Source: Flammeovirgaceae bacterium SG7u.111 | GTDB lineage: Bacteria; Bacteroidota; Bacteroidia; Cytophagales; Flammeovirgaceae | Direction: 5' to 3' | Assembly (NCBI GenBank): GCA_034044135.1 | Contig: CP139021.1 | Location: forward strand, 1,007,635 to 1,071,634 | Length of the DNA stretch: 64,000 nucleotides | In this document: positions 40,396 to 46,387 of the stretch, piece after piece | Numbering within the stretch: position 1 is the stretch's first letter | How the letters are laid out: every line of letters begins with the position of its first letter | The notes under the pieces: model-generated | Seen by the model: the letters and a program-made list of their open reading frames with translations, nothing else | What the model was told of the DNA's origin: nothing | Database searches by the model: none | Program-made: the position numbers and the translations under genes

Positions 40396-41304
40396 TTAAA
40401 ATTGTTCTAAAATAATTTCTCTGCTTGCAGTTGCCCCAGCTTTTGTGCCCATTGCCACGGTATTTGCAACCGATCGCATGCGTGTTGTATTATCTCCGCA
40501 TGCATAAATACCGGGCACAGTAGTTTTCTGAAAAGGGTCAACGTGTAGGTAACCGTCTTCGGTCAATTGACAGCCTAGGCTTTCGGGAATCGAACTGTGC
40601 TGCTCGAAAGGGTTGTGGGCGTAGAGGGCTTTTAAGCTTTGAGTTGTTCCATCTTTAAAAAGAATGTGCTGCAATTGTCCTGACCTATGAACCAATTGTT
40701 GAATTTCTTTTTCTACAATGGGAATCTTCCGGTTTTGCAACTGAAGGGTTTGCTCAGAGGTTAGGGTCGGTTTTCCATTGGTAAATAGCGCAAGGTTATC
40801 TGTCCAGTTTTGGATGAAACAGGAAAACTCAAAACCATATTCTCCATTGCCTAAGATTCCTGTTTTTTGATTGCGTACCTCGTATCCGTGGCAATAGGGG
40901 CAGTGGAGTACCGAAATGCCCCAGCATTCGGGGTAGCCTTCAATGGATGGTAAAAGGTCTCGAATACCTGTGGCAAAGATCAAATTTTTAGCACGAAATA
41001 TTTTGCCTGTTTCCGTTTGGATTTCAAAGCCATTTTCCATTTTTGATCCCGTAGTTGCCAAGCCTTGGTAAAACGATACAGAATCATAAGCTGCCACTTA
41101 TTGTTTGGCAAGCGTTGCTATTTCTTTAGGTGTATTTCCATCTTGGGTGAGGAAATTGTGGGAATATGGGGTTTGCCTATTGCAAGGGTTATCACTATCG
41201 ATAATTAGTACCTTCATCAGTGCCCTTCCCAAAGCCATGGCAGCAGAAAGCCCTGCATAGCTACCTCCTACAATGATTACATCAAATTGAGTGTGTGCTT
41301 TCAT
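40396..41304 (-). pseudogene. NAD(P)/FAD-dependent oxidoreductase interrupted by an in-frame stop
   Basis: The frame encodes 302 residues of a thioredoxin-reductase-like flavoprotein, broken by TAA at 41098-41100 after residue 68. Upstream is the FAD loop VIIVGGSYAGLSAA; downstream are the redox-type CPYCHGYE motif, an NAD loop ILGNGEYGFEF and GIYACGDNTT. All domains are otherwise intact and in one frame. The next codon is GTG, so a separate shortened product could start there, but it would lack the FAD loop. Thus it is a pseudogene, a recent mutation (CAA, AAA or GAA to TAA is one base away), or a sequencing error. The upstream AraC regulator may control it. Confidence 0.8.
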
Positions 41305-42413: not shown

Positions 42414-43121
42414 TTACTTCGTTTTAAGAGCTTTCGCTATTTTATTTAAAATATAATGGTCGATGTGTGGAAAACCGCCTTCAACAAGGTCAGCATAATT
42501 GCCGTCTCGGTCTATAATAATATTGGTTGGATACCCTTTGATTTCAAATAATCGGCAAGTACTTCTACTATCTGTAACTACAGGATAGCTTATAGGATGT
42601 TTTTCCAAAAAAGTGTTTACGTCAGATTTCGAGTCGAACGTAATGGATGCAAACACTACGTCTGGGTTATTTTTGTAGCTTTCATACACCTCGTTCAGCT
42701 CAGGTATTTCCTTGATACAAGGCATACAGGAAGTGAACCAGAAATTGAGAACTACTATTTTTCCCTTGGTATTTTTCGAGGTCAGGGTTTTCCCATCAAG
42801 TGTTTGAATGTTGAAGTTAGGGGCTTTTTTACCAACTTTCTCCGATGGCTCTCTCAACTCCATCCTTTTCAGCATCATCGCCTTCTCTTCTTCTGTGATT
42901 TTTCTAAGTTGCATATACAAAAGTTCGCCTTCTTTGTCCTTTACAGGATCCAAAGTCCAATCTCCCGTCATTATGAGCTTGCGCATTTTGATTTGTTCTA
43001 CTCTGTTTCCAGCCTCGTCTTTTATAAGTGTATTTGGATCAACCTGAAGTTCTTGCGCATGCCCTATGAAATAACAAAATAATATAAGTAAAGTGAGTGG
43101 GTAAAAAATTAGCTTTTTCAT
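42414..43121 (-). CDS. TlpA-family periplasmic thioredoxin
   Basis: A 235-residue protein with a Sec signal peptide (MKKLIFYPLTLLILFCYFIGHAQ) and a C-terminal AhpC/TSA-type thioredoxin domain (about 98-232) with the redox motif Cys132-Met-Pro-Cys135 in FTSCMPCIKEIPEL. The cis-Pro context follows (GYPTNIIIDRDGNY). The N-terminal part (about 25-95) has no named fold. The start at 43121 is preferred over 43160, since 43160 lies in an operator-like palindrome. It reduces or couples disulfides in the periplasm by family analogy. Four phased TTAAA repeats upstream (43179-43214) suggest OmpR-type control. Confidence 0.9.
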   Translation of the reverse strand: MKKLIFYPLTLLILFCYFIGHAQELQVDPNTLIKDEAGNRVEQIKMRKLIMTGDWTLDPVKDKEGELLYMQLRKITEEEKAMMLKRMELREPSEKVGKKAPNFNIQTLDGKTLTSKNTKGKIVVLNFWFTSCMPCIKEIPELNEVYESYKNNPDVVFASITFDSKSDVNTFLEKHPISYPVVTDSRSTCRLFEIKGYPTNIIIDRDGNYADLVEGGFPHIDHYILNKIAKALKTK

Positions 43122-43159
43122 AAATGTCTTTGAATTAAGTTTTGAGTAGGTGTGATACA

Positions 43160-43180
43160 AACATACTATGTCAGTATGTT
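43160..43180. promoter_or_regulatory. Inverted repeat upstream of the TlpA gene
   Basis: Arms AACATACT and AGTATGTT with a 5-nt spacer, 39 bp upstream of the TlpA start. The site overlaps the first TTAAA repeat by two bases. A dimeric repressor site is possible; no partner regulator is identified. Confidence 0.4.
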
Positions 43181-43401: not shown

Positions 43402-45993
43402 CTACCTCCACTTAATCTGGGAGGTAATGGTTGAGTCGGTTATTTTATCATCTTCCGCAAGTAAGAAGGCTTTGGATAAAATGACGGACAACCCAGAGTC
43501 TCCCTCGAAAGGAATATACAAGTTATCGGTATGGTTTTTCTTGCTTCGGTCTGGAACGATGCAGAGGTATTGGTCATTGGGTTCCATCAGGATATTGGTG
43601 CTTCCAATATGAATTTTGTAGGTTCTTAACTTTCCTTTCACCACCAAAAACTTATCTTTTATTTCAGCTACTTTACTGATTTTAAGCCTTGGTAAGAGGG
43701 AACTAAGGATTTCTTTCCTGTTTTTCGCTATTTCGGAAAGATCCCCAAACGAATAAGCTGTCCAATAATCTCTATAGGCTGGTACGCCGCCTGAGTCTTG
43801 CCAAGTTGGGTCGTTGCCCACGCTGGCTACTCCCACAAACAAATCCACATCCCTTAGCACTTCAGAAAAAGGAACAACGGGTATGTCTACCATATCAACC
43901 ACATCATTTGTTTTTAGGTCTAAAAAGCGGATTTGGTCGGTAGCTATGTAGTTCCAAATACCAGTGTCATTATAGGCATCGTCTGCATTGATTTCATTTA
44001 TCCAATATTCTGCCTTTAGCCCAAACTCAGGAAGTTCCAAATCAGCAGCTTCATTGTACCGACCGTCGTCGTACCAGCCCATCAGGGCATAGTTCCAGCC
44101 CCTAGTTTTTGCCAACATATTAAACTGATGCTGTTTCAGTACGTGGGCAGCCATTCGGTTGCTGTAAGACTTGGTATTTACTTCGGCATCGGTGAGGAGG
44201 TACACCTCGCGGAAAGCTTGTTTTAAGGGCTGCTGGAGTTTTTTTTCGATCAAAAAATCTCTCCAATCTTTTATCTTTTCTACAGAATAGTTAGCTGGAT
44301 GCCACAGCGTAACCACGCTATCGGTACTGGGCTGGAAGATTTCCCCCTTGGGGCTCGTCCATTTCCCACCTATGTAAATGCCAGTTTGTGCATTTTCCCC
44401 TGAGGTAAACACCCAAATGAGTTTGTGGGAAAGGGCTGCCATTAAGCCATGTTCTAGGTAGAGCTGGGTAAAGTTTTCCATGTTCCAGCTGCGGTTTTGC
44501 CTGAACATTCTATCAACTCTGTCTCTTTGGGCGGTGAGTGTTTGCTCTAGTTGCTTTTTAGTAGCCTTTAGCTTTTTGAGCTTTTGGGCATGTTTTTCTT
44601 TCACAAAAGCAGGAACAGACTTTTGGTAAGCACCGTCTGGTTTTATCCATTTCAAGGTCGATTTCCCAATTCCCGTAATCTCTATTTCAGCTTGGTAATC
44701 GTCAAATGTCATAAGTTTTTTACCTTGCGCTAGGCCAAAGTCTTCCACTGCCATGTCCTCAATTTCTTGTATAGAAATACCACGGGTCTTGGCAGCGTCC
44801 TTCAGGTACTTGTCGATCATCTTTTGAGTGTTGGCTTGCTTTATCCTCAGCTTGAGGCGCGAAAGCTTTCCTATGCCCGAAAGACCTTTCGACTGAAAAA
44901 GTGTGAAGAGGCAAGCATTACCTACCGCTGCGGCAGCAGGACCTTTTCCAGGGATTTTTCTATAACTCCGTTCGGCTAATCTTGAAATATTGTTGAGCGT
45001 AGTTTCGTCATGAAAGTGGCTGCACATCCAAATAAAACCTTTTATGGCATCAGAATTTACCGAGGACAAAAACTCTGAAGTAGTGTAGTTGTAAGAACCT
45101 CCTGCATAGGTTTGGGTGTATTCGGTGGTCTTTTCCTTTAGTTCGTACAGAAAAACTAGCCAAGCATTAACTGTTTTTTTGAACTTTTCTGCTCCGAGTT
45201 CTTTGAAGAGGGCATTACTTTCTTTTAAGTATTTCTTCGTGGGCTTTCCAGTATTGGCAGTTTGTGCAAGTGCAACTAGGCGGTACCAATGAGGTTGGTC
45301 TTTTTCAGGAGCTTCTTTGATGAAGGAGTTGGCAAATTCTTTAAATTGATCATCTCCTAAAAAAAGAATGGGTTTTATTTCAGCTGCACCATTTGTTGAA
45401 TCGAAATAGATGGAGTCCAGCTTGTTTATTAATTTTGCTTTGGCAGTTGCATTGTAGTTGTTCGTGTCTTGTTTGCATTTTGCTTTCAATACGTCGAGTG
45501 CCTTTAGAAGTTCTTCCGATATTATCTTGCTTTTCAGTTGTTTGCTCAATTGATTCACGAACAGGCCTATAGGCCAAGCATGTACCGATTTCCAGCTGTT
45601 GTATTTTGCTGTTTCACAAAACTTATTGATGAGGTCAATCGCTTGTTGGGCTTCAAAGTGGATTTTGGTTCTTAAAATTTGATGGAGATAAGCATTGCAA
45701 GTTTCCTCCTCTTTGTGTGAATAGGTTCCTCCATGCCTAAGCCCCCTTTTATACTCTGCAATGGTAGACATACAGTACTGTAAAAAGTTGATTTTCTGAG
45801 TGTCATCCCATTTTTTTACCTCGCCTTTGTAAATAGACGTTTCGTTTACATCTGGGGAATAATAGTAGCCGTGTTTGTCCTTTTTTTCAATCTCCTTTAT
45901 GGTTTCGTCTATTACCCTTTTAAAGGTCTCGTTTGCAGTATCGTCGTTTGTTTCTCCTGTAACTATGCTTTTTAACTTTTCTATAATGCTCAT
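43402..45993 (-). CDS. DUF4132-domain protein (MolR/YehI-like), 863 residues
   Basis: A large cytoplasmic protein with no signal peptide. The N-terminal half is helical (HEAT-like or similar; FKEFANSFIKEAP, KFKKTVNAWLVFLYELK, RSYRKIPGKGPAAAAVGNACLF), the middle carries a Lys-rich coiled segment (KLKKLKATKKQLEQTL), and the C-terminal half (about 430-770) has the DUF4132 pattern seen in E. coli YehI/MolR: GIGKSTLKWIKPDG, MAALSHKLIWVF, WHPANYSVEKIKDWRDFL, GWYDDGRYNEAADLELPEFGLKAE. Biochemical function unknown. The upstream 129-residue gene ends 4 nt before its ATG, so the two are coupled. A SWIM, MoxR or VWA gene, sometimes found with DUF4132, is not seen here. Confidence 0.82.
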   Translation of the reverse strand: MSIIEKLKSIVTGETNDDTANETFKRVIDETIKEIEKKDKHGYYYSPDVNETSIYKGEVKKWDDTQKINFLQYCMSTIAEYKRGLRHGGTYSHKEEETCNAYLHQILRTKIHFEAQQAIDLINKFCETAKYNSWKSVHAWPIGLFVNQLSKQLKSKIISEELLKALDVLKAKCKQDTNNYNATAKAKLINKLDSIYFDSTNGAAEIKPILFLGDDQFKEFANSFIKEAPEKDQPHWYRLVALAQTANTGKPTKKYLKESNALFKELGAEKFKKTVNAWLVFLYELKEKTTEYTQTYAGGSYNYTTSEFLSSVNSDAIKGFIWMCSHFHDETTLNNISRLAERSYRKIPGKGPAAAAVGNACLFTLFQSKGLSGIGKLSRLKLRIKQANTQKMIDKYLKDAAKTRGISIQEIEDMAVEDFGLAQGKKLMTFDDYQAEIEITGIGKSTLKWIKPDGAYQKSVPAFVKEKHAQKLKKLKATKKQLEQTLTAQRDRVDRMFRQNRSWNMENFTQLYLEHGLMAALSHKLIWVFTSGENAQTGIYIGGKWTSPKGEIFQPSTDSVVTLWHPANYSVEKIKDWRDFLIEKKLQQPLKQAFREVYLLTDAEVNTKSYSNRMAAHVLKQHQFNMLAKTRGWNYALMGWYDDGRYNEAADLELPEFGLKAEYWINEINADDAYNDTGIWNYIATDQIRFLDLKTNDVVDMVDIPVVPFSEVLRDVDLFVGVASVGNDPTWQDSGGVPAYRDYWTAYSFGDLSEIAKNRKEILSSLLPRLKISKVAEIKDKFLVVKGKLRTYKIHIGSTNILMEPNDQYLCIVPDRSKKNHTDNLYIPFEGDSGLSVILSKAFLLAEDDKITDSTITSQIKWR

Positions 45994-45997
45994 AATC

Positions 45998-46387
45998 TCA
46001 TCCTCCTACAAGTGGTGTTAGTTTTAGAAAACTGATTTTTGAATGTTGGGTAAGCAATATTTTTTCCTCTAGGCTTTCGGCTTGTTGGTTGTCTATCAGT
46101 ACGAAGTAGCTATTTTTGTTGAAGGCTTCCAGTGCTATGTACACTTGCTTTTCCCCGTCAATCGCTTTTTTGTTTTTGACCTTGTAGCCGTTTAGCGTTT
46201 TTTCCGCTTCCGAAGGCTTCACTAGCCCGTTAAAAACTTCGGGAAGCTTTTTGTTGTAGTTCTCCACTTCTTGGAACACCCGTTGGCTGATAATTTCCTT
46301 TACCGTCACATTTTCGGTTGCAAACTCAAGGTTAAGTTCGTTGAGGATCTCTCCCGTGAAGGTTTCATCTTTAATAGTTACAATCAT
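45998..46387 (-). CDS. Small beta-grasp-like protein with C-terminal Gly-Gly, partner of DUF4132
   Basis: A 129-residue protein not recognised by name. Its order of predicted elements resembles a ubiquitin/MoaD-like beta-grasp fold: strand MIVTIKDETF, strand ILNELNLEFA, helix TVKEIISQRVFQEVENYNKKL, a polar insert, then strands YFVLIDNQQ and KISFLKLTP, closing LVGG at the very C-terminus. MoaD, ThiS and mature ubiquitin end in the same way. DNA of the last codons reads GGAGGATGAG, so GG codons also look like a Shine-Dalgarno for the DUF4132 start four nt later; the Gly-Gly could therefore be partly a by-product. No E1, E2 or protease gene is adjacent. The beta-grasp call is inference from pattern only. 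Confidence 0.5.
   Translation of the reverse strand: MIVTIKDETFTGEILNELNLEFATENVTVKEIISQRVFQEVENYNKKLPEVFNGLVKPSEAEKTLNGYKVKNKKAIDGEKQVYIALEAFNKNSYFVLIDNQQAESLEEKILLTQHSKISFLKLTPLVGG

Follow-up and report, generated by a model that had tools for sequence, protein, structure and literature searches.

What does a small protein that ends in two glycines do directly in front of a large DUF4132 gene? The question is raised by a locus of Flammeovirgaceae bacterium SG7u.111, which lies in the 64,000-nucleotide stretch analysed here as a whole (the window; contig CP139021.1, positions 1,007,635 to 1,071,634). The sequence ISFLKLTPLVGG followed by TGA forms the C-terminal end of a 129-amino-acid open reading frame (ORF) on the minus strand (45998–46387 of the window), and four bases (45994–45997) separate its stop from the ATG of an 863-amino-acid ORF on the same strand (43402–45993). 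The initial annotation had read both the LTPLVGG terminus at the stop codon and the 4 nt distance correctly, and had proposed a ubiquitin-like or sulfur-carrier module with DUF4132 as partner. Fold, terminal Gly-Gly, gene coupling and a linked activating enzyme (E1)-like gene in relatives support that proposal. The pair is real and conserved, and very likely consists of a ubiquitin-like protein (Ubl) and its cognate partner, to which many hosts add a dedicated E1. We are highly confident of the beta-grasp fold of the Ubl and of its coupling to DUF4132; judged from sequence, covalent activation of the Ubl is probable.

The fold was predicted with AlphaFold2 from 67 of 84 small ORFs, with unchanged sequences and with duplicates and some others left out; the same set served as the conservation alignment. 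The Ubl model (predicted local distance difference test score, pLDDT, 83.2; predicted template modelling score, pTM, 0.73) contains strands at residues 2–8, 14–21 and 26–28, a helix at 29–46, an insert with a helix at 60–65, a helix at 78–90, strands at 94–98, 109–111 and 118–122, and the tail. This agrees with the element order expected from the sequence (two strands, long helix, insert, strands, tail), plus one extra helix before the last strands. The top Foldseek rows were mostly ubiquitin (Uba1-bound: E 9e-3, probability 0.98) and MOCS2A/MoaD (probability 1.00 and 0.91). VIA-align gave Z 9.3 to a chain of a U11 snRNP complex, a ubiquitin-fold protein, Z 8.9 to MOCS2A, Z 8.0 to E1-bound ubiquitin (root mean square deviation, rmsd, 2.0; 73 residues aligned; model residues 1 to 127) and Z 7.7 to SAMP1 (rmsd 3.1, 81 aligned). 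A Z near 8 may by itself reflect a common arrangement; here the top rows of the modelled structure are mostly of one fold and the alignment enters the tail. The beta-grasp fold, one hallmark of E1-activated Ubls, is thus predicted by AlphaFold2 and VIA-align, with a best Foldseek E of only 9e-3, and the earlier likening to MoaD and ubiquitin is borne out by the structure comparison.

The Pfam scan of the 129-amino-acid protein found no family over cut-off, the PADLOC scan found no defence family, and the best NCBIfam match (E 5e-4) reached 19.8 of 125 bits, far below cut-off. The ThiS/MoaD profile (PF02597) matched none of 11 proteins (the window protein and 10 homologues) at E<=1; as a control, the MoaD-like protein of the window genome itself matched at 7.7e-9. 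Because there is no Pfam ThiS match, we do not file the Ubl in the ThiS/MoaD family. To judge from the model and these scans, it very likely represents a new bacterial Ubl family, matched by no Pfam model scanned. Two further sequence links were rejected: hhalign to the MoaD-like protein of the same genome gave 5 % probability, though with the tail in register, and the best hit when the Ubl profile was run against PDB sequences, a PAS protein at E 0.31, was put down to chance.

The terminal LTPLVGG is encoded at 46001–46021, with the two glycine codons at 46001–46006. An exact C-terminal Gly-Gly is present in 88 of 99 distinct homologues, in ten the first glycine is followed by a short tail (the tailed type) and one has a broken frame. 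In the first homologue set, Gly-Gly ends 82/84 ORFs (duplicates included, such as loci L002 and L013); the exceptions are the broken frame (L056) and a divergent type (L012). Gly-Gly, another hallmark of E1-activated Ubls, thus characterizes the window protein and the GG type, and the tailed clade (10/99) lacks it. The initial annotation had cautioned that the glycine codons GGAGGA also resemble a ribosome-binding sequence. That explanation fails: among 71 intact-tail loci we counted 14 different GGN-GGN codon pairs at the tail, with GGAGG in 33, and where 27–508 nt separate the stop from the estimated next start, Gly-Gly is kept in 19/20 loci, the twentieth being the broken frame. The aligned C-termini therefore show conservation without the overlap, and we reject a ribosome-site artefact because codons and spacing vary and 0/619 other predicted ORFs of at least 100 amino acids in the same loci end in Gly-Gly. 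At the broken locus, from Zobellia (L056:5596–5946), the Ubl frame stops before the tail motif and the partner gene is intact, which may reflect sequencing error or decay.

The coupling of the two genes was examined in the best 80 of 266 loci from a genome-contig scan with the large protein. Profile search found a Ubl homologue upstream, on the same strand as the DUF4132 gene, in 73/80 loci. The distance is at most 508 nt in all 72 loci measured (one of the 73, L084, was left out as its large ORF lacks a usable start), and at most 20 nt in 52. The genomes of the remaining seven loci, one of which (L068) is possibly cut by a contig end, all carry the small gene elsewhere, and all seven copies end in Gly-Gly. 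Among 395 Bacteroidota genomes, 11 have the small gene, and the 10 in which DUF4132 passes the cut-off all have both (nominal Fisher p 5e-19, relatedness ignored). In the eleventh genome (G355) the small gene lies beside a 147-amino-acid DUF4132 piece only, and another (G050) has a DUF4132 fragment below cut-off without the small gene. When the genes were searched separately in 58 nearer relatives, the small gene was found in 8 and DUF4132-related matches in 16, several of them weak and of other DUF4132 kinds. Of 299 Pseudomonadota genomes, sampled around a centre genome (G446) picked because it has the pair, 10 have DUF4132 and three the small gene, exactly those with window-type DUF4132; the DUF4132 ORFs of the other seven are ~1010–1393 amino acids long, with no small gene and no DUF7737 match at their loci. 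DUF7737 is present in all four Ubl-paired large proteins scanned. Deinococcus (DR_A0165), Novosphingobium, Neisseria and SAR324 have Ubl homologues as well, and the proposed coupling to DUF4132 holds across phyla. There are exceptions: a 116 kb plasmid record of Acetobacter carries DUF7737 without a Ubl, the upstream gene there giving no Ubl match, and two genomes (G047 and G011) have large genes without an adjacent Ubl (L149–L151), yet both hold a Ubl elsewhere. Phage or viral carriage of the pair was rejected, as the phage collection gave no DUF4132 match and 0/154 pattern stretches in viral contigs encoded the Ubl.

After clustering of the neighbouring ORFs, only the Ubl, DUF4132 and an E1 recur in more than four of the 80 loci. 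A ThiF/MoeB-like E1 gene follows DUF4132 directly in 24/80 loci, with anything from a 4 nt overlap to a 4 nt gap, and a GG Ubl lies upstream in all 24. Same-strand ORFs within 150 nt downstream were seen in 36 loci, comprising the 24 E1 genes and 12 other ORFs, and 44 loci had none. The hosts of the linked E1 are Flavobacteriia, Sphingobacteriia, Chitinophagaceae and further Bacteroidota. All four linked E1s scanned match Pfam ThiF (PF00899; E 4.8e-61 to 1.9e-68) and fall below every listed NCBIfam cut-off for MoeB or ThiF proper. The MoeB positions G38, G40, G41, D62, N70, R73, Q74, K86, D130 and C187, whose functional roles we assume, are kept in 24/24; by ThiF profile and ATP-site residues the linked E1s thus belong to the ThiF/MoeB superfamily. 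A 43-row tree included 24/25 linked and 19/29 unlinked ORFs whose matched stretch was long enough, these coming from a set of loci capped at 30 plus L121 and L122, and separated linked from housekeeping E1s, the lone exception (L184) being a second record of the linked gene of L030. Three of four Kordia genomes (G454, G782 and G783, with G784 as the exception) have no strong ThiF match other than the linked gene.

The window genome itself has two ThiF-type genes, both far from the pair. The statement that no E1 lies near therefore stands within the window, and fails for the 24 relatives in which E1 is the next gene. One of the two encodes an E1-rhodanese protein whose best NCBIfam matches are MoeB/MoeZ and whose neighbours are a ThiS-family carrier, a Prok-JAB peptidase and a PALP enzyme; the other product (244 amino acids) matches TcdA best, below cut-off. 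A cognate E1 is accordingly present as a linked gene in 24/80 loci and as unlinked genes only in the window genome, where we infer that the E1-rhodanese protein serves the window Ubl. The sulfur-carrier operon (L124:5401–8299, contig C1 at about 7.558–7.561 Mb) has features of its own: the ThiS-family protein ends IAGGIR, two residues past Gly-Gly, and the Prok-JAB peptidase could trim this tail or act on the window Ubl. Of the 43 GG-type genomes examined, the one with the broken Ubl among them, 42 gave a MoeB-type match of nearly full length (E<=3e-58); the 43rd (77 % complete) has a partial match only, at a contig end.

The 863-amino-acid partner belongs to both DUF4132 (PF13569; residues 454–633, minus strand 44095–44634; E 3.9e-43) and DUF7737 (PF24879; residues 756–860, minus strand 43414–43728; E 1.2e-39), each over cut-off. 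The initial annotation had mentioned neither DUF7737 nor the joint loss of tail and cysteine nor the Deinococcus relative described below. Its AlphaFold2 model and conservation analysis used 64 of 79 large proteins (L068 and L084 had been left out earlier as too short), and the model reached pLDDT 85.8. Residues 15–412 (44758–45951, minus strand) are modelled as HEAT/ARM-like helical repeats that match CAND1 (Z 9.1–10.3, rmsd 6.2–8.3) and others at Z of about 10 and rmsd 6–8, a match that is unspecific for helical repeats. Foldseek returned nothing for the partner at E<=0.001, and no known fold could be assigned to its C-terminal half; because the VIA matches mainly cover residues 15–412, this half was barely tested. 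An AEP-TOTE match (E 0.03) and the best hit of a PDB sequence search with the partner profile (E 0.037) were taken as chance. In 28 proteins, P461, H565, Q588, P589, Q592, R595, Y598, T601, E604, S611, R613, R631, W633, F690, D728, G787, Y792, H795, G797, S798, I851, D853 and Q859 are invariant. Conservation also marks Cys811 (motif YLCIVP; codon 43561–43563, minus strand) as a candidate acceptor thiol.

The tailed clade bears directly on this cysteine. Profile searches found 10 distinct tailed Ubls of 138–157 amino acids, ending ..[AST]G[ASTR][YILM][WY] (one alignment row, of L141, is three residues short, its full tail having been seen separately), and hhalign of tailed against GG type gave 98.7 % and 2.7e-16. 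They lie beside or near large proteins, mostly of ~1690 amino acids, with the architecture DUF5724-DUF4132-DUF7737 in the one scanned. Variants include one gene between the pair with DUF4132 first (L138), a large gene in two ORFs (L152) and a degenerate large gene (L141). None of 10 tailed loci examined has a linked E1, and one tailed genome (G250; a single contig rated 100 % complete) has no ThiF-family match, as opposed to at least one in six other tailed genomes examined. When a tree was built from the last 450 residues, the tailed proteins grouped as a single clade (97/94) whose sister is Deinococcus, where Gly-Gly (4/4 Deinococcus Ubls) and the cysteine are both present; the DUF5724 architecture is common to Deinococcus radiodurans and the tailed type. 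The Cys811 position is cysteine in 126 DUF7737 ORF records, duplicates included, which come from Nonomuraea, GG-type loci and genomes whose GG Ubl lies elsewhere; in 21/21 tailed-type records it is serine (12), asparagine (8) or alanine (1), and in Acetobacter phenylalanine. Most simply, Gly-Gly and Cys811 were lost together once. The co-loss fits transfer from tail to thiol, and is no proof of it because it is a single event on the tree.

Taken together, these data led us to a tentative reading, not quite probable on sequence evidence, in which E1 activates the tail, the DUF4132-DUF7737 protein receives it and Cys811 carries out thioester transfer. The ThiF/MoeB-like E1 would adenylate the C-terminal glycine of the Ubl, and in the window genome this E1 would most likely be the single unlinked E1-rhodanese protein. 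For conjugation, or else sulfur transfer, the activated tail would then be passed to the partner, most likely as a thioester on Cys811, and the DUF4132-DUF7737 protein would be either a combined conjugating enzyme (E2)- and ligase (E3)-like transferase or itself the target, with its helical-repeat half possibly picking the substrate.

A number of observations weigh against this interpretation. Foldseek with the Ubl model gave no match under 1e-3. No linked E1 is present in 56/80 loci, 50 of which have at least 900 nt of downstream sequence, and the linked E1s lack R14 and the four zinc cysteines of MoeB (the E1 of the window genome likewise lacks these cysteines). An E1 is found somewhere in 6/7 tailed and 12/14 control genomes as well, and because these mostly have one too, its presence in GG-type genomes lends weak support. 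Neither an E2 nor a RING or deconjugase gene is a recurrent neighbour of the pair in the 80 clustered loci; for the 27 genes adjacent to the pair at E1-less loci, the first 25 families of a list of 53 include no E2 or JAB family, and in the window the seven neighbouring proteins scanned belong to families other than E2 and JAB. Nonomuraea has the Cys811/DUF7737 motif without a Ubl among the adjacent genes covered. In a 26-protein comparison, three of 36 GG-invariant columns (W527, A603 and C811) behave like C811, the only nucleophile among them; with one co-loss event and three such columns, chance may account for the pattern. Finally, the tailed clade keeps the pairing without Gly-Gly, so part of the coupling is non-covalent.

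The strongest alternative, which we nevertheless consider doubtful, is a sulfur-carrier module: an E1 and a sulfurtransferase would convert Gly-Gly to a thiocarboxylate, and DUF4132-DUF7737 would be the enzyme that uses the sulfur, the counterpart of MoaE in the MoaD system, with Cys811 in the transfer. The only MoeB-type E1 of the window genome fits this, given its rhodanese domain and its place with a ThiS-family carrier, Prok-JAB and PALP, as do MOCS2A/MoaD among the closest folds and the rhodanese-sized E1 frames (351–439 amino acids, E<=5e-71) of 22/22 genomes searched that showed no linked E1 (two, L017 and L092, with less than 250 nt of downstream sequence, and one, L056, with the broken Ubl). 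However, the linked E1s, at about 230–240 amino acids at most, are too short to include a rhodanese, the 80 loci show no recurrent cysteine desulfurase, rhodanese or cofactor gene next to the pair, and the tailed clade retains the pair with no tail to thiolate. A non-covalent subunit, in which the Ubl binds DUF4132-DUF7737 as a folding or regulatory partner and Gly-Gly is a docking tail, appears unlikely: tailed Ubls do keep the partnership without Gly-Gly, in G250 even without any ThiF-family match, but this leaves the 24 operon-linked E1s, each with a GG Ubl upstream, the retention of Gly-Gly across phyla and its joint loss with Cys811 to be explained. Very improbable is a DUF4132-DUF7737 deconjugase or thioesterase that removes the Ubl with Cys811 and an invariant histidine while E1 alone ligates, as in the Urm1 and SAMP systems, since the C-terminal half of the partner, barely tested as it is, matches no known protease fold, even though the 28 proteins share invariant H565, H795 and D728, together with C811 in the GG type, and no JAB peptidase recurs beside the pair.

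The module compares with known systems as follows. With MoaD/ThiS, MoeB/ThiF and MoaE/ThiG it shares the beta-grasp fold, terminal Gly-Gly, a MoeB/ThiF-type E1 and an enzyme partner; the window Ubl is longer than MoaD/ThiS (129 against about 80 amino acids) and has an insert, and unlike MoaE/ThiG the window partner matches only DUF4132 and DUF7737. Urm1-Uba4 and SAMP-UbaA combine a Ubl with a single MoeB-type E1 and no dedicated E2. The module resembles Urm1-Uba4 and the archaeal SAMP-UbaA in these two components, whereas its dedicated DUF4132-DUF7737 partner, inherited along with the Ubl, sets it apart. Bub, Bil and CBASS Cap2/Cap3 are likewise bacterial operons carrying E1-like enzymes. Operons of the Bub, Bil and CBASS type contain E2-like and JAB-type genes; in contrast, no E2 or JAB gene recurs at the present loci and PADLOC gave no match, so we do not assign them to this class. 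E. coli YehI, encoded beside MoxR and VWA genes, has DUF4132 in common and lacks DUF7737; YehK (105 amino acids, after yehI) was rejected as a Ubl, having by eye no glycine tail.

Bub operons are often under DNA-damage regulators (PMC13373217), and so is a Deinococcus operon, under DdrO. Profile search identified a D. radiodurans homologue (L199, a plasmid record) that ends LTALAGG, 2 nt before its DUF4132 gene; by gene order (trxC, hypothetical, DUF4132) the pair is DR_A0165/DR_A0166. DR_A0165 corresponds to SEP068184, which is raised by gamma rays and H2O2, whose deletion gives higher H2O2 survival, with which 157 proteins including Trx1 co-purify, and whose predicted structure was likened to molybdopterin (MPT) synthase (PMC9650054). 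The co-purification set N- against C-terminal tags and, as described there, was non-denaturing. The same paper describes it as not conserved outside the Deinococcus family, whereas the present searches make it a single branch in a family spanning several phyla. Two papers disagree on a radiation/desiccation response motif (RDRM) upstream of DR_A0165: absent according to PMC9650054, at −83 according to PMC8533742, which reports DdrO/IrrE-dependent induction of DRA0166 and places DR_A0165 in an operon with drA0166 under DdrO. A D. radiodurans JAMM protease cleaves MoaD-MoaE (PMC8832034). Downstream of the window pair lies an AhpC-TSA (thioredoxin-like) gene (42414–43160, same strand); the D. radiodurans pair also has a thioredoxin gene as neighbour, but on the opposite side, and this is probably coincidence.

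In the open-access literature searched, few papers name DUF4132 (PMC8533742 and PMC9334617 among them), and the sole function offered in the accessible texts is a guess at molybdopterin biosynthesis; no mention of DUF7737, DUF5724, PF13569 or PF18991 was found. MolR is mentioned in the available text of PMC7824862 only for its WGR domain, and that of PMC1779556 does not mention it. Within this literature, the Ubl-DUF4132-E1 module appears undescribed, and the Ubl/E1 pair is joined here to a partner family that is not tied to Ubls in the papers found. The finding points to an unrecognized ubiquitin-like system in bacteria, and the tie to a Ubl and an E1 gives the DUF7737-bearing kind of DUF4132 a testable biochemical role. 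As the Deinococcus knockout, co-purification and regulation are already published, the question of conjugation under stress can be asked at once, and the natural loss series, with Gly-Gly and Cys811 gone and one genome E1-free, is a built-in control for the covalent steps. We would go further only speculatively, to a picture that is on balance improbable: DUF4132-DUF7737 would be a new, structurally unrelated class of cysteine-dependent E2 and E3 for a Ubl of at least four bacterial lineages, the DR_A0165-DR_A0166 pair would form a conjugation system, induced by DNA damage, through which resistance to oxidative stress is regulated (a stress role suggested by the Deinococcus relative), and one Bacteroidota clade would hold an E1-free, non-covalent pair.

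Several minor observations concern individual loci. The small protein on a contig labelled Thalassovita (L013), a genus of Alphaproteobacteria, is identical to one in G011 (contig C226), a family relative of the window genome, and the label of this metagenome-assembled genome is probably wrong. Neisseria sp. HMSC077D05 (L063/L228) has a GG Ubl and a DUF4132-DUF7737 protein near the Bacteroidota type, consistent with horizontal transfer or a mixed assembly. One genome (G002, L147) carries the tandem array Ubl-DUF4132-Ubl-DUF4132-DUF4132, with the tailed type (L152) in the same genome. In the window, the ORF at 40396–41097 (pyridine nucleotide-disulphide oxidoreductase) covers profile positions 93–291 only, the N-terminal part being absent from the frame.

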